Of a stretch of DNA of 64,000 bases, positions 4,926-62,540 are shown piece after piece. A model generated the notes under the pieces. The model had not been told where the DNA came from. It was given only the letters and a program-made list of their open reading frames with translations, and made no database searches. How positions within the stretch are numbered: the stretch's first letter is position 1; each line of letters starts with the position of its first letter. The stretch spans positions 24,567,126 through 24,631,125 of the forward strand of contig OX387195.1 of assembly GCA_947561395.2 (NCBI GenBank), given 5' to 3'. Source of the DNA: Buxus sempervirens. Its lineage: Eukaryota > Streptophyta > Magnoliopsida > Buxales > Buxaceae. The translations under genes were made by a program, and so were the position numbers.

Positions 4926-7220
4926 TGTAACGCCTCGGATCCAGGTTTATTTAAGAACACAAACCTAGCCCTAGAACGTTAGGGTAATGGCCCAAAATGA
5001 CTAATCCAAATTTACACAATTTCCTTTAATATAATCAGAGTGCGGAAATAACATAAAATTTATTTTTCTTTCAAGAAACGCAGAATACCAAGGGAAACCT
5101 CCAACACCAATTCCTCAACTAAGTCTGAAAAAGGGTTAACTAGAATAAAATGAACATCATCCATGTCATCTAAATAAAAGTAATCTAAAACAATTCTTCC
5201 AATAAGTTAACTTTATTAATGTAAATCCCTAAACCTATACAGGAATAAAGTAATCCTGGTACTCAGTAAAATCCTCCGAAGTGTCTATCCCTACAACGTC
5301 CTGACCAGGAATAACTGAAAACAAAACCGATAAAACGATAATGTGAGAAACAACATCTCAGTAAGTAGTCATGCAAATAGTTAACCACAATAAAATATGT
5401 AACGCTTAATCCGACTAATCACATGATTTCAGTTACAATGAAACATAATTCCAAGCATGGTGGCATAGAAATACAACCACACTGAAACATCTTGTCGAGT
5501 ATACAGACTGATGATAACAGGCAATAGCCACCACATAACATTCATCCCACCGAGTACACGGATTAGGATAAACCAATGACTATCTTCCCACCGAGTACAC
5601 GGATTAGGAACTACCCCATCGAGTACACGGATTAGGATAACCAAATAATTAACTTCTCACCGAGTACACGGATTAGGAAGTACCCCACCGAGTACACGGA
5701 TTAGGATAACCAAATACCAATAACCAAATCCGCTTTGCGGAAACAATAAACCAGGCACCTGCCTTGTTACAACAGTGACCCAAAAACCCACACAAGCAGA
5801 GTCAAATACATATCTTAAACTCATGGTTTCAATGGGAAAATTAATCCAAGTGTAAATAAAATCATTCGGCACTCAAAGCATGTCCAAATAGTCCAACTAC
5901 AGGTGTAGGAACTCTTGAATTCAAGTTTGGTTAAGAGTAAAAGTGTTTTGAACATAGGTATTAAGTTGAAAAGCCTCTTTGGTAAAATCTATCCAAATTT
6001 CTTATCAATTTGAATTCTAAACATCCGCCAGTGCAGACGATCTCCAAATACCTTAGACTTGATGGTACATAGGCTAAAAATGGAAAAAAAAAATAATTCC
6101 GTAGTGAAAAATTAGGTTGGATGGAAAATTTTCTAAAACCTGACAGGAGGGCACTCGAGCGAGCATTAGGGCGCCCACATAACTAAATAAACACAAGGTA
6201 TTTCAGGGGTAGTCGCTCGAGCGACTGCTCGGGCGACAGTTCATTCTGGAAAAATTGCTCTCGAGTTTTGACAACACACCAAGAGCGCTCAAGCGACTGC
6301 TCAAGCAGCCTGATACGGAAAAATCTGAAGGTTTGCGAAATTCAATAAAAATTCCACAACTCAGTATCCAATGCATTAAATCCATTCTAAAACACTTTAT
6401 AAACATGTTAGAACAACTTTCAACAAATAAAACATCATTAAACACAAAACAACTCATCAAACCATTGGATAACCATGAATATCGAATAAACACGAATATA
6501 TTTTTGTGCAAGTTTAAAGGGACTACTTACCTCTCTTCTGAGATCAAATCCTTCTCCTATCAATCTGAAGATTATTTCCTAATGAACCCCACGAACACAG
6601 CAAATCTCCTTCACTGTTTAATCAAAGAACATCTTCTAAGATCTTCCTAACTCAAAACCATCGCAAGGAACTGGGTTTGGTTTATTCTTCTTACCTTAAA
6701 CTTACACGAAATCCTTTCTTCCTGTTCTTCTGATCTGGTGAGCAAGTGCACAAAAATCAGAAGTGGGAAAACTCGCGGATGGACGAACAGGTTACGGCTG
6801 GTTTTCCTTCTTTTCTTTTCAACGTGAATAGCAACTTTCAAACTTTCTCTTCTTTTTATATTATTTCAATTCTTTTACCTATTTACCCCTTAGCCCTATT
6901 AAAACTCTTATTACTGTTTTATCTTTCCTACTTCTAACCAAAACAAAACTTTATAAACCCAATCATCCGGGTTAACCCCCACTCTCAGATGGTTCGACCA
7001 CCTAATTTATAATGCTTCTCTGTTTATTAATTCGATCACTTTATCAATCTTGAATATTAGCAAATAAAATTCCTACTTATCCTGAATTAAAATCTCTCCT
7101 TATAATATTTCCCACCTTCCTCTGATTCACTTTGAACTTCTCCGGTTTGAACCAATGCCTCAACCTCTGCTTATTAAACACTAAATCAATTCATTCATTA
7201 CTAAAATCTGGGATTTTACA
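4926..7220 (-). mobile_element. solo LTR of a Ty3/gypsy-type element, about 2.3 kb
   Basis: Bounded by TGTAACGCC...ATTTTACA and flanked by TAGGT on the left and TAGGC on the right (4 of 5 bases), a probable 5-bp target duplication. Read on the minus strand, the termini TGTAAAATCC...GGCGTTACA match those of the 4.16-kb LTR at 56478-60637. Both share an internal stretch running from a TTACTG-GA start motif to a TTTTGTTTTCAG-type end, so they belong to one broad family. Contains the five-copy motif array listed separately. No internal region or second LTR is present. The diverged flanks suggest moderate age. Confidence 0.7.
5547..5707. repeat. five irregular tandem copies of a 21-base motif inside the solo LTR
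   Basis: CACCGAGTACACGGATTAGG occurs five times (one copy with CATCG) at alternating spacings, with linkers resembling GGATAACCAA and GGAACTACCC. It lies inside the 2.3-kb LTR. The equivalent place in the 4.16-kb LTR (about 59750-59860) has a different repeated GTGTGGGATCG motif. Confidence 0.85.
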
Positions 7221-49634: not shown

Positions 49635-51665
49635 TTACACTTCCACAGCCATGATACGGAGAGGCTTAGCCTTTCGGAGGGTGATCCCAAACTCTTCTTC
49701 CACATCTATACCTTGTGGTGTCATCCCATCTTCAAGCCTCCATTCGAAGGAGTGGATAAGAGAAGCCAACATCACTTGCACCATCTTCAATGCCAGTGGT
49801 AGTCCAGGACAAATCCGCCTCCCAGCCCCAAACGGAATGAGCTCGAAGTGTCGGCCTCTAACATCAATCTCAGACTCCATGAACCTCTCAGGCAAGAACG
49901 AATTAGGATCTTTCCATATACTTGGATCTCGGCCAATCGCCCATACATTCACTAACACTTGCGCATCCTTCGGCACGGTGACACCATTAATCTCTACGTT
50001 GGAATTGGCTTTGTGAGGGACTAAAAGCGGAACCACTGGGTGTAAACGAAATGTTTCCTTCACGACTGCTTGCAAGTAAGGTAGGTGAGGGAGGTCCGTC
50101 TCTTCAATTGCCTTGTCCTTTCCAACAGTTTTGTGTAGCTCGGCTCGAGCCTTTGCCATTATGTTTGGGTTGCGAACTAGCTCTGTCATCGCCCATTCCA
50201 CAGTGGAAGAAGTGGTGTCTGTCCCTGCAACGAATAGGTCCTGAAAAAGCTAGCACTGGATGAGTTTTGAAAGGTTGCTTATTCTATGAAGAAACAGAGT
50301 TAGGATTGTTTGGAGTGGAGTTCACATCCCCCAATTACTTAGGTTTGTCCTCGTAACCCCTAGAAATTGTAAGAATTTTAAATAACAAAAGAAAAGAGTA
50401 AGATTGATTGTTAGAACCCGTGTCTCTCATACAATATTGGGATATAGAGCCTATGTCTCTCTTTCATAGAATAAGAGTCTGTATCTCTTGTAATTGATGA
50501 TAGAGTCCACATCTCTGTCATGATATCGAAGGTTATGACCCTTTAAATATCAATACAATTTGCCTATTTATTGGCACATTTTAACCGGACCTTAGCCGGC
50601 ATTTTCTACAAATTAACTTCCGTACAAAACCGAGAGACCTAAGCCACCATTTTTTACTTTGTCATGTGTTATCAGATAAACGAATTTATTCCAACTCTAA
50701 ATTCAAGCCATCACCTCATTGTTGCTAAAGGACAAAGAACGAAAGTAACACAAATAAGATAAATAGATACTAACCAGCAACAAGTGTTTGATAACGTCCA
50801 AGTCGAACTCCGCACTATTCTCTTCGTTGTGGTCAAGAAAGGCTTCTAGTACGTCATTGTTTGTTGGGGAACGATGGATTGCTCTGGACTGCAATCGCTG
50901 CTTGATAACACTGTCAAACAGAGCCATCAGTTTAGAATAATGAGTCTCCATTCGACCTCTTATACCTTGGGGATCTACCATTCTGAGAATTGGGAAATAG
51001 TCTGCAAGATTGGGTTTTCCTGCCTCCTTCATTATACCCCACACCAGTTCCTTAAACTCCTGAGTTGATTTCGAACTGGGATCGGCCAAATCAGAAGAAA
51101 AAAGTGTGTTCCATATCGAATTCAGTACAGTGGTGAAAGCAGCCTTGCCTATATCAACTGCAAGACCAGCCCGGCAACTTTCCCGAACATGCTTAAGCAG
51201 GTCCTGCACCTTCTGGCGCCGAAGGTCTTGGTAGGCGTCGAGCTTCTGAGGGCAAAACATCTCTGCATAGCAGATCCTTCGAAGGCTTCGCCAGTGAGCA
51301 TAGGGTGGTGTCCACCCCACGGACACCTTGTGGTGGTTATGTGCTCGAATCGAGTCAACGACGGTTCGGTGAGAGATTGAATGGTCGTTCTTCTGCAAGG
51401 TTTCTTTGGCCATCTCTGCAGAAGAAACAACCACCGTTGTCAAGCTGCCCAGTTGCAGAGTCATGAGGGGCCCGTAAGTGTTGGCGAGCTTTGCGAGTGA
51501 TTTGTGGGGTTCGGTACCCAGCTTGAAGAGGCTTCCGACGATCGGAAGAGGGACGGGACCCGGTGGGATTCGGGTTGATTCAGAGCTTTTTCCATGGATG
51601 GTAAGGAGAAGAAGAATACAAGCCAACGAAATCAACAAGCCCCACAGTATTAGCACGTAATCCAT
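49635..51665 (-). CDS. cytochrome P450, CYP76 family, copy A
   Basis: ER-anchored haem monooxygenase. CYP76 enzymes commonly oxidise monoterpenols, iridoid precursors or diterpenes, but the substrate here cannot be told. Exon 1 is 51665-50775 (297 codons) and exon 2 is 50240-49635, joined in phase 0 as HLLL/DLFVAGTDTTSS with GT and AG, giving 498 residues. Seen: N-terminal anchor (about 1-22), proline hinge IPPGPVPLPIVG, I-helix AGTDTTSSTVEWAM, K-helix ETFRLHP, PERF, haem loop FGAGRRICPGLPLA with its cysteine. The 534-bp intron is at the usual CYP76 position. The upstream open frame to 51737 contains the TATA-like site, so MDYVLIL at 51665 is the start, as in copy B. Confidence 0.95.
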
Positions 51666-51710
51666 CCCTATGTGCCTTTTTTTGTGCAGCTCGATCTTGT
51701 TGCTTTGTCG

Positions 51711-51720
51711 TCTATTTAAG
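51711..51720 (-). promoter_or_regulatory. TATA-like element of P450 copy A
   Basis: Minus strand CTTAAATAGA, 46-55 bases before the ATG. Conserved at the same place before copy B. Confidence 0.6.
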
Positions 51721-52109
51721 ACAAAATCTACACACAACTTGAGAGAAAATCAGACCACAAGGAAGGAATGATATATATATAAAAAAAAAAAGATTTATTA
51801 CCGTTTTACAAGAATGTTGAGCAGATGACTTCCTGTGCATCCTCAATCTGAGCCCCCGCCATGAACCCTCCTTCGATGAGCAACACGTGTCCAAAAAAAG
51901 CGCGGACAAAAAGGTGTTCAGTCTCATATCAAACCGATTTTCGCGTTAACACTGTTAACGTTGACGTCGTTGAGTTTGCGCGGATAAAAAGGCGATTTCA
52001 ATTTCAAAATGAATTTGGCTCCCACCAAATTCTCCCTTGTCTCTCCCATGGCGACCTCATCCCTCTCATGGCGCCCTATCTCATCTCCCTTATCTGGACC
52101 CCTCTTATC

Positions 52110-52900
52110 TAGACCCATTTTATCCTTCGTCAACAGCATCTGGGTCGATCAAAAGTTTCCTCTCAATCCTACTTTTGTTGAGATTGTTCTTGATACCTTC
52201 AGGGTAGAAGCCAAACAGGTGGACTTCCAAAGGAATGGAATGTTTTCCGGTTTGGGAAAAAAGAAAAAGCTGGAAATCAAAGGAGAAAGAAGAAAAAGTA
52301 TTTTCTTTGAGTTGAATTTATTATTACTTTTTCCTTTTATTTCGATTATGGCTAACGATGCATGATCATAATGTCCAATGCTCTTTTGGAAGGCCGATGA
52401 AGTGAGAAATGAAATTAATTCATGGGTTGAGGAAGCGACAAAAGGGCTCGTCAAGGAGTTTCTCCCGTCTTGAATCTCTGGATTCTACCACTACACTTGT
52501 CCTTGCAAGCACTCTACCTCAAAAGGATCTTGGGATCGGAAGTTCGATGCATCCAAGACTGAGGACAGGGAGTTCTACCTTCCTAACGGGGGAGACATTT
52601 CGAGTACTTCATGACAGTCAAGAAATACCATAAACAACTCTACCAACAGTAACACTCTGACGACTCCAGAGGCATGTCTTCAGACGTGGTTTTACATTGT
52701 GAAATTTTCGGGAAATCAAGTTCATTAATGAGGAAGGTGCAAAGGAAACAAGAGTAGAAATTGTAGATTACAGATCATCAGCAGGGCAGGGCTAGGAATA
52801 GAGGAGAGACAAGGTGCAAGTGATTCATCAATCCCATCCGGGAGAAGTCCCTCGCACTGGTGGTGGTGCCTTAGGTACCGCTACCGCGGCAGTGGCCTGT
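52110..52900 (+). pseudogene. captured serpin (Serpin-ZX-like) gene fragment
   Basis: The plus strand contains, in order, serpin-like pieces: PILSFVNSIWVDQKFPLNP (compare LSFxNGVWVDQSLPLKP in plant serpins), VEAKQVDFQ, then after about 190 bp ADEVRNEINSWVEEATKGLV followed by KEFLP, then SLDSTTTLVLA, WDRKFDASKTEDREFYLPNG, and FMTVKKYHKQLY in another frame. A stretch GTATAAVAC near 52880 could be the reactive-centre hinge. There are frame changes and at least one stop after KEFLPS, so no full inhibitor can be made. The gap after VDFQ falls where an intron is plausible. The N-terminal third of a serpin was not found. Confidence 0.65.
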
Positions 52901-54235
52901 ACAATCCACTACACTAAGGTTGCTATTCAAGGCCAAAACAATGATGCCACATAGGGGCCAAATCACTTTGTTTTGTGTATCTACATCTAAAGAACAGAGC
53001 CATTGGACCATGCCTTTGATTGTATTCCATAGATTGAACAGTAATGGTCTTCAGTTTTTCAAATCTTTGATTTCAGCTTTTAATTTTGAAGAACTGTGAA
53101 TTTAGTTTTCAGATCTTTGATCTTAGTTTTTAAGTAGTATTCCATGCTCCAGAAGTCTGGTAAATTGAAGCACTTCTCCATGGATAATTGTCGCACTCGA
53201 TCTCTTCCGTGCAATTCATAGAAGGTTTTCTACATCCCAGTTATTTTCAAGCAAGAATTGATTTTTAACAAAAGTATCTAATAACAGACAAGTATTTTGG
53301 ACGATCTTGGTCACTGATGCACCTCCTACTGAAATTTTAGTTTGAGGAATCAAGCTGATCTGGTGAAATTGTTGAACATTTACCACCGGCATCTTCTAAA
53401 ACAGGGCTTACACTCGGTTACAATACGTTTGGTTGAGCAATCAGGTCGATCTTGTAAAGTTGTTGATATTACTAATAGTAGTCCGGTAACGGCGAGTCAA
53501 AGGAGTCTGGGAAGAAATATTTCTATTTGCCTTTATGTTTTCCAACTCGTAAAAAAACCATATATATGCAAGCAGAGATTGGAACAACCTTTTAGAAGCA
53601 GATTACAAGGAACTATACCACGGTGGTTACTTCGTCAATATATCATTTTATGTGATCAGACACTAGCATCTGCAGAAGATTATAGAAATTAATTAATTGT
53701 CCAACAAAAATAGTAAAAAAGAGCAAAGACTTGATAGCAAACCAAATGATGGAAGTATGGAACTAGAGTAACTTGAAAAATGATATAGCACCAACAACGA
53801 CTCTTGAAACAGTGTTAAAATTCATCAAATTGCCTCAAATGCTTTATTTGTTCCGAATATAATAATATACCTGATTCAATTATATTTTACATGTCCTCAA
53901 AATTGGATACCAGCCTTAAAATGGCAAGAGTACATCCTTACAACTTGAGGAAAACGAACTCCTCAATAGCTAGTATATCCCTGGTGAACCATCCAGCAAA
54001 ATTTCGCTCTTCTGTTATCCTCAGTTTCCTCTGCTTGGCTGTGAAATCCATCTTCACCAAATTCACAAATACTTGATATTGGCTCAATCAAACCCTTGGT
54101 GATCATGGGACGAAGGAGTCTAGTATCAAGATCATTATGAACTCTAGAAGCAAAGTCACCTTCACAGATTTCATGCCACTTCCACCTGCTACCAAGCATT
54201 CAAAATCCAGCATGTAAATTGACTTCATTTCTTTT

Positions 54236-54550
54236 TCAACTTCACGAACTAACTTCATTTCTCACTTCATCAGCTTGCCTCAAGAGCGTTGAACATTATA
54301 ATCATGCATCGTTAGCCGTAATCGAAATGTAAGGAAAAAGTAATAATGAATTCAACTCAAGAAAAAAACTTTTTCTTTCTCCCTTGATTTCCTTTGTTTT
54401 TTTCCTTCTCCAAACTGGAAAACATTCCATATACCTTTGTTTGGAAGTCCACCTGTTTGGCTTCACCCTGAAGGTACCATGAACAATCTCAACAAAAGGC
54501 TTGAGAGGAAACTTTTGATCGACCTAGATGCTGTTGACGAAAGATAAAAG
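54236..54550 (-). pseudogene. second serpin fragment in the right inverted arm
   Basis: Minus-strand counterpart of the left-arm piece: SGPLLSFVNSI, then VDQKFPLKPF, then ADEVRNEVSS. It stops where the inverted similarity ends. Beyond it (54226-53900, minus strand) lies a different, unidentified coding-like stretch containing KQRKLRITEERNFAGWFTRD and ILAIEEFVF before a stop. Confidence 0.55.
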
Positions 54551-54890
54551 GGGTCCAGACAAGGGAGATGAGACAGGGCGCCAAGAGAGGGATGAGGTCG
54601 CCATGGGAGAGACAAGGGAGAGGAGGCGAGGGCCTCGCCATGAAAGAGACGAGGGAGATAGGTCGGCTATTTGGTGGGAGCCAAATTCATTTTGAAATTG
54701 AAATCGCCTTTTTATCCGTGCAAACTCAACGACGTCAACGTTAACAGTGTTAAAGCGGAAATCGGTTTGATATGAGACTGGACGCCTTTTTGTCCGCACT
54801 TTTTTTGGACACATGTTGCTCATCGAAGGAGGGTTCACGGCGGGGGCGCAGATTGAGGATGCATGCACAGGAAGTCATCTGAAATTCGAG

Positions 54891-55235
54891 ATATTAACGT
54901 CGTTGTTAACGTCCAAGTCGTGTAAAAGGACACGTGTCTCCTCATCTATCCGCTTGTGTCATCATCGAACAACTCGCGCATTTAACGACGATAAAGCCGT
55001 CCTATCGAGACACTTTTACCCATGTACGTATGCACTTGAAATCTGTTGGAGCTGGACTCGAATACCAGTTGGTCTAACGGGCAATGTATGTGTCCACATA
55101 GGTATGTAAAATTGATGTGTACATATGCATTGCAGTTGAACCAGCAAATCTTCCAGCGAGAAGGTCCAGATGATATGATCTCATACGTAAGATACCTAAG
55201 GATATCGTCTGCAGTTTTTTACGTTGTGTGGAGCA
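54891..55235. repeat. ancestral P450 upstream DNA, copy linked to copy A
   Basis: Collinear with 62214-62540 upstream of copy B (ATATTAACGTCG / ATATTAATGTCG; GACACGTGTCTCCTCATC / GATACGTGTCTCCTCATC; AAGCCGTCCTATCGAGACAC; CGTAAGATACCTAAGGATAT). Before the MULE-like insertion it would have sat directly upstream of the copy A promoter. Confidence 0.85.
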
Positions 55236-55389: not shown

Positions 55390-58300
55390 CTAATTTCCGA
55401 CACATATATGCTTGTTAACTTCCGCAGCCATAATATGGAGAGGCTGAGCCTTCCGGAGGGTGAGCCCAAACTCTTCTTCCACATCTATATCTTGTGGTGT
55501 TATCCCATCTTCGAGCCTCCATTCGAATGAATGAATAAGAGAAGCCAACATCAGTTGCACCATCTTTAGTGCCAGTGGCATTCCTGGACAAATCCGCCTC
55601 CCAGCCCCAAACGGAATGAGCTCGAAGTGTCGGCCTCTAACATCAATCTCAGACTCCATGAACCTCTCTGGCAAGAACGAATTAGGATCTTCCCATATAC
55701 TTGGATCTCGGCCAATCGCCCATACATTCACTAACACTTGCGCATCCTTCGGCACGGTGACACCATTAATCTCTACATTGGCATTGGCTTTGTGAGGGAC
55801 TAAAAGCGGAACCACTGGGTGTAAACGAAATGTTTCCTTCACGACTGCTTGCAAGTAAGGTAGGTGAGGGATGTCCGACTCTTCAATTGCCTTGTCCTTT
55901 CCAACAGTTTTGTGTAGCTCGGCTCGAGCCTTTGCCATTATGTCTGGGTTGCGAACTAACTCTGTCATTGCCCATTCCACTGTGGAAGAAGTGGTGTCTG
56001 TCCCTGCGACGAATAGGTCCTAAAAAAGCATTGAATGAGTTGTGGAAGGTGGCTTACTGTATCGAGAAACAGAGGCAAGATAGTTTGGAGGTGGAGCTCA
56101 CCTCTTGCAATTACTTAGTGTGAGATCATAATTCAGGGAGGAGAAAGTGAAGGTCTATATATGCATACTTGTAACTCATTTCCCTTAAGAAATGAGACAT
56201 TTTAGGGTATAATTCAAGAGCAAAATCGTAGGGTCCGTTGGGCCAAAAAGGACAATATCATTACTATAGGGATGGGGGCGTTATAGAATAGTATTAGAGG
56301 CGGTTCTTCTTCAAAAATATGGGACTCAGGCTACCGCACAGGGACATGCAACCCTTGAGGAGAGTGGATGGTGGTGGGTTCAGGCTACTGTAAGGGAACG
56401 TACAACCCTTAAGAAGGGTGGATGGTGGTGGGCTCAGGCTACTGCAAGGGGACGTGCAACCGTTATGGAGGGCGGATTGTAAAACCCCGACCCGAATTAT
56501 ATCTTAATTATTAAGATTAATTATCTAAAGTGTGATTATTAGATTAATTAAGTAATTGTGTTATGAAGATGAGGTAAATGTGGATTATTCTTGAGGATTA
56601 AGAGAAATCAATTGAACTGTATGAAGGTTATTAAGGAAAATTTAATCAATGTTAGTTCTCAATTCCAATTGTCTAAGATACTCTTCAATTAGCTTAAATG
56701 AATTGGAAATCAAATTCTGAAAAGTTAGACTTATGTGTACCTAGAGTAATTCCTAAGTATACCCATGGTACCCCAAAATATACCCCAGGTACCCTCCCGA
56801 ATAACACTAGAAGTACACCTATACATTACTCAAGGTACTTCCCAAGTGTACCCAAATTATCCCCTAAGAGTACCTAAAGTAACTCTTAAGAATACCCAAG
56901 GTACCTCTCAAGTGTACTTTAAGTGTCTCCCAAGAATACCCAAATAACCTCTTAAGTGTACTCAAGGTACCTCACTTTTATACTTAAGGTACCCCCAGTG
57001 TATGCTCAAGGTATCACCCAAGTATGCCGAAGGTACCCCCATTGTATACCCCAAGTACACCTAAGTATTACCCAAGGTACTCCCATTGTATACCCAAAGT
57101 ACACCCAAGGTATTCCACTATTTCACCTAAGGTACCCTACTTTAATTGCCTAAGGTACCCTTGTGTTTGCCTAAGGTATCCCCTTATGTTTACCTAAGGT
57201 ACCCCTGTGTTCATCTAAGGTATCCCATTGTGTTTGCCTATAGGTACCCCTGTGTTTACCTAAGGTACCCCACTGTTTTGCCTAAGGTACCCCATTCGAA
57301 TACCTAAAGTACCTCCTAATTATACCTAAGGTACCTCACTTGTATTGCCTAAGGCATCCCTTTATTTTAACTAAGGTACCCTACTATCTTACTTGAGGTA
57401 CCCCCTTTATATAACTAAGGTACCTCCAACATACCTAAGGTACATCCCCTATATTACCTAGGGTACACCCCTTGTATTTCCTAGAGGTACTCCTCTCATA
57501 TAAGTAAAGTACCCCCACTGTTTTACCTAGGGTACACCCCCTATGTAGCCAAAGTACCCCCTTTGTATAACTAACGTAACCCTTATATAAGTAAGGTAAC
57601 CCCCATTGTTTTGCCTAAGGTATAACCCATTATATAGCTAAGGTACCTCCCCTCATGTAACTAAGGTACACTCCTTCTATAGCTAAGTACCCTCCTCAAT
57701 ATAACTAAGGTACACCCCCTAATCTTATTCAAAGTTTACCCCTTAGAATAACTAAGGTAAATCCATTGAAACATCAAGGTACCTCCTCAAATAACTAAAG
57801 TACCCCTCATATAACTAAGGTACCCTTCTGTGTTAACTGAGGTACACCTCTCAAGCATCCCTAAAGCATGCCTTTTGATGTGGCTAAGGCAAACACCCCA
57901 TTTAACACTAAGGTACCCCACTTAATACCAAGGTACCCCACTCGAATAACACTAAGGTACCCCTGGTATGCCTTAGGTACACCCTAGGGTTTTAGTTGAA
58001 CAAAAGCCTTGTTTAGGGGCAGATTTGAAAGACCCAAAACTTGGGCATATAAAAGGATACCCTAATTTCTAATTAAGGGTTGGAAAACCCATTCCTCTTG
58101 TCTTGGACGTATAGAACAAGAGAGAGAGTTGTGGGAGCTTGCTTCAAAGCTTCAAGGAGAAGGAGAAGAAGAGGAGAGCTAGGAGAGGAGGTTGCTTCTC
58201 CATTAACAAGTAAGTAGCAAACCCTTCCAAACAAAATGAATTACCAACTTTCGTATTCTCTCTCTAGGGTTTGGTTTATTTGATGAAATGATCTTGCATG

Positions 58301-61300
58301 ATGGTTTGGACTTCTAAAATTCGTAGGGTTTTGATTGTATGATGATCTTGGTTATTTTTCTATTGATTTGCCATGGACTTCCAACTCTATTGATCCTATT
58401 TTATATTAGGGTTTGAGATTTGTGTCTTGAATGAGGTTTCATGTGTTTGATTTGTGTTCATGTAGATTTGAGATGAATCTTTATTTCAGAAGATGTTTTT
58501 AAGTGTGTTGGGATGTTTTGTGATCACCTACTTTGATGTTGGAAAGGTTGTAAAGGGTTTACATGAGTTTTGTGTTGAAAATAGTCAAAATATTTCAAAA
58601 TCCCGACCCTGCGATTAATCCTGAAAGTTGGCGATTAATCCTGAGCCAAACCCCTAAAAACAGGTCTCTGTTAGAATAAATCGCGAAACAGGATTAATCG
58701 CCCAAGGCTAATCGCGACCTTAGCGCGCGAACGTTAAACCTTACCGCGCGCGCGCTGAACCTGTTTTAAACCTGGGCGCGCGAACCTTAACCCTCAACGC
58801 TCGAACATTGAACTAATCGCCCCTGGGCGATCAATCCAGGGGCTAATCGTGGACCCTGTTTCTGGAGTTGTTCATCATTTTTCTCTCCAACCCTTTGTCA
58901 AACAACCCAAGCTTCTCGCATAGCTCCCTTATTACATGAAAGACATTTAAGTAAATGTCCTGTGTATTTATTGCTCCATTTACTTAAGTCTTTACATGTA
59001 AATAAGGTTTTACCCCCCATTTGGAACCAATAAAAATACTCTCAAGGCCCAATTCCCAACCAATAAAAAGTCAACTTTTCAGTTTGTGCCTAAATTTCCA
59101 GTTTCCCCGATTTCCAAAAATGGCCACTTTTTGAGTTTGATATCCCAACGAGTGATTCAGAAGCCCAGAAAATTCTAGATGATTTGTATACCTTCTAATA
59201 GACTACAACCAGAATTTGAGCCCCAAACTCCTTGTAGATTTGTCTAGAAAAATTCCACATCAAAAAGTCAACGTTTTTAACCAGACTTAGAATATTTCTG
59301 AGCTCCAAAACTTTTTGTCTCGGAATCCATTGAATATTGGTATGGTGACTTATGTAGGGATCCTAAGACTACTCCACTCAGTCAAAATGTGTTTTGAGGG
59401 TTTTACGATATTCTTTTTGATTTATTTGGGTTTATGGAAACAAGGTTGAGAACTCTTTTGTGATTTGAATGATGAAGCTGAGGCTTCTTGTGGACTTGAA
59501 AAAGGGGCCGAGAGCCCATGGTAACCTGAAAGGCAGTGAGGCCTAGAGATTTAAAGGAATATGAACATGAGGTTCACTTGATATGGTTTTGTACTTCAGA
59601 CAAATGGTGCTTTTATGAGTTTGGTTTTACATAAACTGTTTTACTGGTTTATCGTGAGTTTGTATTGAGTCCAGTGGGCATAGAGACAGTTATGGATCCA
59701 TGGTCAATCTAGTTAGTGTATTAGTGATGGCTTGTCAAGTTAACACCCCGAGCCACATATGCGTACCACCGTGTGGGATCGGTGAGGCCTTCGTGTGGGA
59801 TCGATGAGCTGCAGCGTGCCAGCCCATGCGTGGGTGCTCCACTCGTACGATGACCGTGCGCGGCTTCGACAACGGGTAGTGAGGTGGCAAACCGGCTAAG
59901 GGTGTTAACCCGATTTACAACACGCTAATCCACGAGTCCTGCTAAGTCATGTCTGCAATATTTGATTGTTTTATGGAACTGATTTCATGTGTGATTTGAT
60001 TGAGATATTCGACTCTGAACTACACTTTATATCCGATGGAATTGCTTTGTTTACATTTAGTACTTTCTATTGCGAATATTGTCATAAGGTTATAAAATTG
60101 CATAAACTGTTTCTATGCATGCATGTTTGCTGCTTACTGGGACTTTAAGTCTCACGCGTGCTTTGTTTTACCGGATTTGTTTTCAGATCCTCCTGGTGAG
60201 CCGCGTATTGGGAGTGAGTTTGAGGAAGACCCAAACTATAGACCCGAGGACTACTACGATTACCCACAGTAGGACTCTCTTTTTATGATGTTGTATTTTG
60301 TTAGGGAGTTGCAAATGGGATGTAATTATTATTTTTGGACTTATACTCTTGGGAGATATCTTTTGTACATGTCTATATATTTTGGAGAGATCATTGTAAA
60401 TGGTTAGTTGCCTTAGTTGCATTTTGTTCACATGTATATCATGTTTTGGAGATTATAGTATAGATGATCTTTGATTATATGGAAAATTTTTATTCCATGC
60501 TTCTTTAGTCATGCACTCTGATAATTACATTGTAATTGCCCAGGAAATTGTGTTTATCAGGTTCTATTGGGCCCATAAGTAGGTCTCGGGTACGGGTTGG
60601 TGCTGTGATAGGGCAGACCTGGATCTGGGGCGCTACACGGATTGTGGTTACCGTCGGGATGAGACTATTACAACTGTGCAACCTTTACGGAGGGTGGATT
60701 ATGGTTGCTGCTGTATGGACTGGGCTACAAGAGTCACTTCGACATCGTCATTAACCCCTCGAAATAAGCTAAATTGGGGACGGCTAATTTTTTAGGGAGA
60801 ATTATGAAGGAGGATCACTTTTTAAAAATATTTATAAAATGAGCCCACTGATGACAAAGTGTATTTTTTTCAATAATTATAAAAAATCCATTGAAATTAA
60901 ATTATAGGATCACTATCAAAAATAATTAAATTTGAGGAACACTTTAAGTCGAGAGTCCCATACACGGATACCAAGCATGTTTTGTTTATGATAAAATAAC
61001 ATAATTTTTTTAATTATGTTTGAGAAGTGACCCTTAGATCAATTATGTTTGAACATAGTCCTATTCTACAATTCGACATCCTAGTGGACTGTTTATAAAT
61101 ATTTTTAAAAACAACCTTTTTCATAATTGACTCAAAAAAAAAAAAAAAAGGAAAAAAAAAAAGGGTGAGATACTAACCAGTAGCAAGTGTTTGATGGCGT
61201 ACAAGTCGAACTCCGCACTATTCTCTTCGCTGTGGTCAAGAAAGGCTTCCAGTACGTCATTTTCTGTTGGAGAACGACGGGTTGCTCTGGACTGCAATCG

Positions 61301-62068
61301 CTGCTTGATAACACTGTCAAACAGAGCCATCAGTTTAGCAAAATGAGTCTCCATTCGACCTCTTATACCTTGGGGGTCTACCATTCTGAGAATTGGGAAA
61401 TAGTCTGCAAGATTGGGTTTTCCTGCCTCCTTCATTATACCCCACACCAGATCCTTAAGCTGCTGTGTTGATCTCGAACTGGGATCGGCCAAATCAGAAG
61501 AAGAAAGTGTGTTCCATATCGAATTCAGGACGGTGGTGAAAACAGCCTTGCCTATATTAACTGCAAGACCAGCCCGGCAACTTTCCCGAACATGCTTAAG
61601 CAGGTCCTGCACCTTCTGGCGCCGAAGGTCTTGGTAGGCGTCGAGCTTCTGAGTGCAAAACATCTCTGCATAGCAGATCCTTCGAAGGCTTCGCCAGTAA
61701 GCATAGGGTGGTGTCCACGCCACGGACAACTTGTGGTGGTTATGTGCTCGAATCGAGTCTACGATGGTTCGGTGAGAGATTGAAAGGTCGTTCTTCTGCA
61801 AGATTTCTTTGGCCATCTCTGCAGAAGAAACAACCACCGTTGTCAAGCTGCCCAGTTGCAGAGTCATGAGGGGCCCGTAAGTGTTGGCGAGCTTGGCGAG
61901 TGATTTGTGGGGTTTGGTACCCAGCTTGAAGAGGCTTCCGACGACCGGAAGAGGGACGGGACCCGGTGGGATTCGGGTTGATTCAGAGCTTTTTCCATGG
62001 ACGGTAAAGAGAAGAAGAATACAAACCAACGAAATCAACAAGCTCCACAGTATTATTACGTAATCCAT
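55390..62068 (-). CDS. cytochrome P450, CYP76 family, copy B, with a 5.2-kb intron
   Basis: Tandem paralog of copy A. Exon 1 is 62068-61178 (297 codons) and exon 2 is 56019-55390 (209 codons plus stop), joined in phase 0 (GT at 61177, AG at 56020), giving 506 residues. The same signatures are intact: IPPGPVPLPVVG, AGTDTTSSTVEWAM, ETFRLHP, PERF, FGAGRRICPGMPLA. The C-terminus is eight residues longer than copy A (NKHICVGN). The intron is ten times that of copy A because of a 4.16-kb solo LTR and a minisatellite. The frame is open throughout, so the gene looks functional if the long intron is removed. A 40-base A-rich (T-rich on the coding strand) stretch lies directly after the donor. Confidence 0.93.
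56325..56476. repeat. minisatellite of about 60-bp units in the copy B intron, left part
   Basis: Units of the form CAGGCTACTG-x-AGGGGACGTGCAACCCTTGAGGA-GGGTGGATGGTGGTGGG occur about three times in a row, degenerate. The array resumes after the solo LTR at 60643 (CAACTGTGCAACCTTTACGG, AGGGTGGATTATGGTTG), so the LTR landed inside it. Confidence 0.8.
56478..60637 (+). mobile_element. giant solo LTR (4160 bp), Ty3/gypsy-type
   Basis: Begins TGTAAAACCCCGACCC and ends ATCTGGGGCGCTACA, with perfect CGGAT duplications at 56473-56477 and 60638-60642. Contains a 1.2-kb array of TACC repeats, a probable promoter (GCATATAAAAGG, about 58045), a C/G-rich block with repeated GCGATTAATC and GCGCGAAC motifs (58610-58850) and a final region like that of the 2.3-kb LTR at 4926-7220. 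No internal region or second LTR is present, so it is a solo LTR left by recombination. The intact duplication suggests a fairly young insertion. Only giant-LTR lineages such as Tat/Ogre-like ones are known with this length; the lineage here is inferred. Confidence 0.8.
56755..57990 (+). repeat. about 1.2 kb of degenerate TACC-centred tandem repeats within the solo LTR
   Basis: Some sixty copies of a 16-22-base unit with the core CTAAGGTACCCC. The left part uses CCCAAGGTACC and AAGTGTACCC forms, the middle and right parts CCTAAGGTACCCC with ATATAACT linkers. The unit contains the palindrome GGTACC. Short accidental reading frames (PQVYP-like) come from the repeat. Confidence 0.9.
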
Positions 62069-62114
62069 CCCTTAGGTGCCTTTCTTTGTGCAGCTCAATC
62101 TTGTTGCTTCGTCG

Positions 62115-62124
62115 TCTATTTAAG
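62115..62124 (-). promoter_or_regulatory. TATA-like element of P450 copy B
   Basis: Minus strand CTTAAATAGA, 47-56 bases before the ATG, identical to the site of copy A. Confidence 0.6.
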
Positions 62125-62319
62125 ACTAAATCTACACAACTCGAGAGAATATCCGACCACAAGGAGGGGATGATATCGAAAAAAAATTATAACCGTTTTA
62201 CTAGAACTTTGAGATATTAATGTCGCTCTTAACGTCCATGTTGTGTAAAAGGATACGTGTCTCCTCATCCAACCGCTTATGTCATCATCGAACAACTGGC
62301 GCAATAGAGACCATATCAG

Positions 62320-62443
62320 CTGGAGCCTATGCTGGAATATCTGCTGGTTCAACGGTGGGCAAGGTGTACACGTTAGCATCAATCACAAACGTGTACATTC
62401 CCTTCACCGTTGAACCAGCGGATGTTCCAGCAAAGGGCTCCAG
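62320..62443. repeat. long hairpin (foldback) upstream of P450 copy B
   Basis: Two arms of about 55 bases (CTGGAGCC ... GCTGGTTCAACGGTG ... GTACACGTT) pair around a 12-base loop, with few mismatches. A degenerate form of the same foldback is present in the homologous region near 55050-55170 (GTTGGAGCTGGAC ... GTTGAACCAGC ... TTCCAGCG). Confidence 0.8.
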
Positions 62444-62540
62444 CCGATTTCAAGTCCATTTCACGGCGATAAAGCCGCCTTATCGAGACACTCTTACCCA
62501 CGTACGTAAGATATCTAAAAATATCGTCTGCAGTTTTACT

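Follow-up and report, generated by a model that had tools for sequence, protein, structure and literature searches.

The window analysed here, a stretch of 64,000 nucleotides, is part of contig C22 of the 676.5-Mb genome of Buxus sempervirens, and the genes found in it (for a LysM-domain protein and a NAF-domain kinase, besides the P450 frames) are of plant type. All genome matches fall on 14 large contigs, 13 of which, together with at least 33 Mb of C21, account for ~666 of the 676.5 Mb, so that the assembly probably consists of 14 chromosome-sized pieces. Two copies of a P450 gene lie on the reverse strand of the window: copy A (49638-51665) has open frames at 50706-51665 and 49638-50249, and copy B (55393-62068) has open frames at 61124-62068 and 55393-56019, which are probably two exons of one gene spanning a gap of ~5 kb. 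The closest solved structure to the first frame of copy A is that of ferruginol synthase (5ylw, E 1.5e-73). Each copy has, in addition, a small upstream insert (~55045-55180 and ~62308-62455) with GGAGC/GCTCC-like ends, which the other copy lacks at the corresponding position; by appearance the inserts are related to each other.

Between the P450 copies lies an element with inverted arms, at 51822-54881, with CAGATGACTTCC at its start and GGAAGTCATCTG at its end. The left arm (51822-52424, forward strand, 603 bases) and the right arm (54243-54881, reverse strand, 639 bases) align over 661 columns with 80.9% identity, and the outermost ~77 bases (51822-51898, forward strand, beginning with CAGATGACTTCC) form a core terminus that is common to many elements of the genome. 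Long terminal inverted repeats with such a conserved outer end are a mark of Mutator-like elements (MULEs). The interior (52672-54227) is in part common to relatives that carry no serpin sequence; a Pfam scan of 10 of its 15 frames of at least 45 aa yielded two matches, both below the cut-off, and no transposase, and an Rfam search of the whole window at gathering thresholds gave no match. The borders proposed in the first-pass annotation are confirmed by a full-length copy on C15 (L031) that ends at the same bases, and the two arms of ~0.6 kb described there, each with a serpin piece, are likewise found, with a serpin match in each.

The element is flanked by two 9-base sequences, AATGTTGAG (51813-51821) on the left and AAATTCGAG (54882-54890) on the right, which are identical in six of nine positions. 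Both flanks are parts of the two copies of one P450 gene region, and upstream of P450 copy B the paralogous site is uninterrupted, with a single copy, AACTTTGAG, at 62205-62213. Window positions 51000-51821 align to 61403-62213 (93%) and positions 54882-54980 to 62205-62303 (88%), so that the left homology ends at 62213, the right one starts at 62205, and the flanks overlap by exactly nine bases in the paralogue. The alignment of both flanks thus verifies the preserved empty site that had been reported from inspection of the letters, and the 9-base duplication claimed with it is borne out by this overlap and by the flanks of the sister elements. The six matching positions of the window element would by themselves be weak evidence of a duplication; it is the empty site and the sister elements that carry the point. 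The start of the element and the ATG of copy A (51665) are 157 bases apart, the element being on the upstream side, and the DNA upstream of the P450, which is still near copy B, now lies 3.06 kb farther from copy A; it is possible that the insertion changed the promoter of this copy, whose distal part the first-pass annotation supposed to be cut off. The insertion is promoter-proximal, next to a P450 gene, and datable against a preserved empty site.

The first-pass annotation had also proposed that a host serpin was captured and came to lie partly inside the terminal arms, and matches of both arms to five serpin loci support this. The left piece (52112-52671, forward strand, broken by a stop) occupies part of the left arm and extends a little way inward from it, and comprises the end of exon 1 (52114-52230), a retained intron and the start of exon 2 (52384-52661); a Pfam Serpin match, with one internal stop, covers 52384-52599. 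The right piece (54228-54556, its arm part from 54243) has the opposite orientation, on the reverse strand, and the same outer junction as the left one. Stops or shifts interrupt the serpin pieces. A search for the Serpin family found 24 places in the genome, four of them within elements carrying the cassette, and the five loci that match the arms are clustered at C4:6.17-6.20 Mb, with 80-84% identity to the left piece and 78-83% to the right one. No donor was found among them, the best match reaching 84%. Because the serpin homology runs through the intron, the sequence was captured from genomic DNA. The serpin locus nearest the captured piece (L051, C4:6168600-6170300) has an unusual C-terminus after EGTEAA and is perhaps a damaged gene.

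The serpin cassette occurs at six loci, on C22, C15, C12 (three) and C10, a number that is a lower bound of the searches. The copy on C15 is 98.1% identical to the window element over all 3060 columns, in reversed orientation and with the same ends, and two copies on C12 (L032 and L033) match its interior and the inner parts of its arms in pieces of 93-98% identity and have a different terminus, CAACCCGCTTCC. Two further copies, on C12 (L056) and C10 (L034), are more altered. The four full-length copies, on C22, C15 and C12 (two), each have their own flanks, and the flanks of L031, L032 and L033 do not match those of the window. Arms running past 51822 or 54881 were looked for in these same three copies and none was found, so the borders stand. 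The element had been seen as a single oddity; it is instead one of six loci with a serpin cassette, within a family in which several arms bear host genes. The six loci, three of them with flanks that do not match those of the window, show copying by transposition and not just by local duplication, as in other Pack-MULEs.

Relatives without the serpin are present in the same genome: L035, L036, L057 and L058 have parts of the interior in common with the window element, and no serpin match was seen within the stretches retrieved. The match to the interior begins, both in L035 and in L057, at window position 52675, exactly at the end of the serpin piece, and L035 has 137 bases between arm and interior, versus 622 in the window. 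The outer ends of the family are mosaic. In three arm comparisons between the window and L032/L033, the first 90 bases have 58-83% identity, while beyond base 90 an identity of 87-100% is reached in 19 of 20 30-base steps; the first ~77 bases of the window are instead 92-96% identical to the ends of L037, L038, L039 and L047. It follows from this contrast that the same serpin cassette is carried behind either of two termini. An alignment of twelve ends shows the lineages diverging past the core, and of 40 genome matches to the first 208 bases of the window, 32 end by base 90 (28) or start after base 92 (4).

The element is a non-autonomous MULE carrying host sequence, that is, a Pack-MULE: it holds a serpin piece with its intron, and the ten interior frames scanned revealed no transposase. 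A MULE family was also missing among 19 distinct frames from 12 loci that were compared with Pfam (10 frames from L039, L040, L043, L044, L045, L047 and L050, and 10, one of them repeated, from L037, L040, L041, L043, L049, L059 and L060; L038, L042, L046, L048 and L056-L058 were left out). These frames matched Ribosomal_S21, DUF4378 (an interior frame of L039), PMSR, Ribosomal_S3Ae (two frames, one just below the cut-off) and a copia-type gag, and below the cut-off zf-CCHC, SF3a60_bindingd and Solute_trans_a; in the largest element retrieved, at C10:25782572-25798380 (L059 and L060), three of 18 listed frames were scanned, and it may yet contain a transposase. Inspection by eye of 150 scored of 1051 PF10551 (MULE transposase) candidates revealed none between paired termini of the CAGATG/CAGTTC type. 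An open frame of 836 aa with a MULE-transposase match (C6:46471436-46471720) was found 3.3 kb inside a terminus of the CAACCC type; the second end of this element was looked for and not found, and the region C6:46471436-46475045 is a candidate autonomous partner.

The assignment to the Mutator type rests on the flanks and on the long inverted arms. MULEs are described as having target-site duplications of 9-11 bases and long inverted repeats (PMC3310237), and the overlap at the empty site is nine bases. The flanks could be compared for 14 elements with both ends readable (the window and 13 of 20 loci, L034-L036 and L047-L050 having been dropped for a missing or unsettled end), and the 9-base flanks matched in 9, 9, 9, 9, 9, 8, 8, 8, 7, 6, 6, 4, 2 and 2 positions, the poorest being L031 and L040 (2/9) and L038 (4/9). 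At least six matches were thus seen in 11 of 14 elements, versus one of 182 swapped flank pairs (that one with six, and none higher), and registers of eight and ten bases were near background, with never more than 4 and 5 matches, respectively. A pattern built from the termini CAGATG/CAGTTC had 54 matches genome-wide, and its reversed control none; for the other terminus, 27 matches were counted. Another class of element, such as hAT with its duplications of eight bases, or a fold-back structure from a local inverted duplication, would be compatible with long inverted arms, which alone do not settle the class, and with the imperfect duplication of the window element, but the sharp optimum at nine bases across 14 elements and the same ends in copies on several contigs make it very improbable. 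Palindromes are difficult to assemble, and an artefact of assembly might be considered on this general ground; four full-length copies with their own flanks on C22, C15 and C12 (two) leave such an artefact a practically negligible probability. The Mutator type proposed in the first-pass annotation is thus upheld.

The junction between transposon and serpin sequence is identical in both arms of the aligned elements. In a tree of 12 arms and five serpins with ultrafast bootstrap support, a single clade holds all six right arms (support 100), the left arms stand apart (75) and the five serpins stand apart from all arms (76), the latter two groupings being suggested with moderate support. Within one element the left and right serpin parts are 83-86% alike (14-17% different); between elements the left ones are 91-98% and the right ones 90-99% alike, so that the arms separated before the six copies spread. 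When the arms are joined by a 12-base linker and the interior is omitted, the predicted fold has 549 of 560 pairs between the arms and an energy of -946 kcal/mol, versus -318 to -334 kcal/mol in five mononucleotide shuffles. The numbers of exact runs of at least 21 bases shared with the five serpin loci are 10, 6, 6, 7 and 1; positions 52207-52231, perfectly paired in the fold, match three of the five loci exactly, and 52143-52166, also perfectly paired, match one. These paired stretches make it possible, on the folding model, that the element gives rise to small RNAs against serpin genes, as the first-pass annotation had envisaged.

Two further explanations concern these arms. If each arm had captured the serpin independently, from one gene or from two related ones, then the difference of 14-17% between the arms of one element, which is about that of each from the sampled serpins, would be expected, as would the greater length of the left piece, and the support that separates all arms from the serpins is only 76; but age alone accounts for the divergence, the right arms form a clade with support 100, and both arms have the same junction, so that independent captures are improbable. 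The tree alone is indecisive, and it is the shared junction together with the separation of the arms that favours a single capture, which would have been copied to the opposite arm soon afterwards. The element might also have been kept as a hairpin gene whose small RNAs silence serpins. The single long hairpin predicted for the arms, far below the shuffles, the exact runs of at least 21 bases shared with all five loci and the two paired stretches would fit this role, and there is a precedent in Mu killer of maize, an inverted duplication proposed to act via a hairpin RNA (PMC3440606); captured sequences in maize are also described as potential reservoirs of siRNAs that affect the donor genes (PMC13317346). 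Against such a function, the identity between the serpin parts of the two arms has fallen to 83-86%, contrary to selection for pairing, and the same structure is expected from any MULE with captured arms; maintenance as a silencing gene is accordingly quite unlikely.

We therefore return to a non-autonomous Pack-MULE with one serpin capture that was copied between the arms, spread, and was inserted next to a P450 gene, an explanation that as a whole we consider very likely. Against it speak the imperfect 9-base flanks of the window element, L031, L040 and L038, the transposase searches described above, which found none inside the elements, the moderate support of two groupings in the tree, and the best serpin match of 84%. 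The borders, the 9-base duplication, the empty site, the copies, the serpin origin, the shared junction, the relatives lacking serpin and the mosaic termini are observed; the order of events, the mode of repair and the source of the transposase are what we infer. An ancestral element would have taken up a genomic serpin piece, intron included, beside one of its arms, and most of this piece would then have been copied to the opposite arm, by gap repair or by conversion across a fold-back structure, lengthening the arms to ~0.6 kb that now included host sequence. The cassette would have spread by transposition with a transposase supplied in trans, and the outermost ~77 bases differ between two lineages as if the terminus of another MULE had been exchanged in. 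One copy landed upstream of P450 copy A, 157 bases from its ATG, and duplicated nine bases there, whereas copy B retains the original site.

Host genes are also found in the arms of other family members. L045 and L046 contain in each arm a stop-free stretch of 162 aa resembling rpS21 (Ribosomal_S21, E 3.1e-16). The places noted for the unbroken frame are L045:1214-1699 with its mirror, L046, and C14:10894330 and 10899708. Among the 13 rpS21 matches listed for the genome, six lie in three element pairs and four in two inverted pairs with unconfirmed termini; of the rest, two lie at one C10 locus and one on C6. The nearest locus outside elements (C10:42616000-42616780) is 97.6% identical and frameshifted near its end; over 139 codons (21 codons excluded for gaps, the C10 sequence being anchored at an earlier ATG with the frames still paired) the arm frame differs from it by 5 synonymous and 13 non-synonymous changes, which gives no sign of constraint on the arm frames. 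L049 carries MsrA sequence in both arms (5382-5720 and 9071-8922; 50 of 113 residues in the right arm), and the 15.8-kb element at C10:25782572-25798380 has RPS3a sequence in both of its arms (L059:664-2544 and the mirror in L060), which are at least 2.5 kb long and 99.6% alike. Among L037-L044, six elements (L037, L039, L040, L041, L043 and L044) were tested with one or two frames each, and none of these showed a recognisable host gene in its arms. The rpS21, MsrA and RPS3a cases look like independent captures. A broader view of this MULE family, which we put forward tentatively and with less than even confidence, is that the true terminus is confined to the outer ~77 bases, whereas the inward arm would be replaceable and repeatedly rebuilt by copying the DNA beside one end, host genes included, into the other, with termini swapped between lineages. 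In this way host genes would be present twice per element, in opposite orientations, and such a pair might be expressed or might silence the gene of origin; an example would be the chloroplast-type rpS21 frame, which is unbroken in both arms of at least two elements.

The way in which MULEs take up host DNA is, according to the literature, still not understood (PMC3310237; PMC8277862), and models of capture by gap repair and by stem-loops are summarised in PMC4858842. The genome studied here holds a natural series, with relatives without the serpin, copies with the serpin and copies with another outer terminus, and this series, together with the arms that bear other host genes, makes these models testable by a comparison of junctions. 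The capture of host sequence into extended arms has already been published (PMC3310237), so that the kind of element is known; a search of a literature library found no paper on serpins together with Mutator-like inverted-repeat elements. The locus contributes an unusually complete series for one cassette, and it is of interest for the repeated capture into arms within its family and for the mosaic termini.

The element shares with Pack-MULEs the 9-base duplications, the long inverted arms, the host gene piece with an intron, the presence of several copies and the insertion close upstream of a gene, but part of the captured gene is located within the arms, instead of all of it between them. 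With the tandem-TIR MULEs, as described for PM-ZIBP of tomato (PMC3310237), it has in common atypical long termini, a gene piece and several copies; there, a second TIR is present in tandem, whereas in the present element host sequence lengthens the arms and the outer termini differ. Like Mu killer, as presented in PMC3440606, it has an inverted structure that could yield a long hairpin RNA, but Mu killer consists of part of mudrA in inverted duplication and silences MuDR, whereas the putative targets here would be serpin genes of the host.
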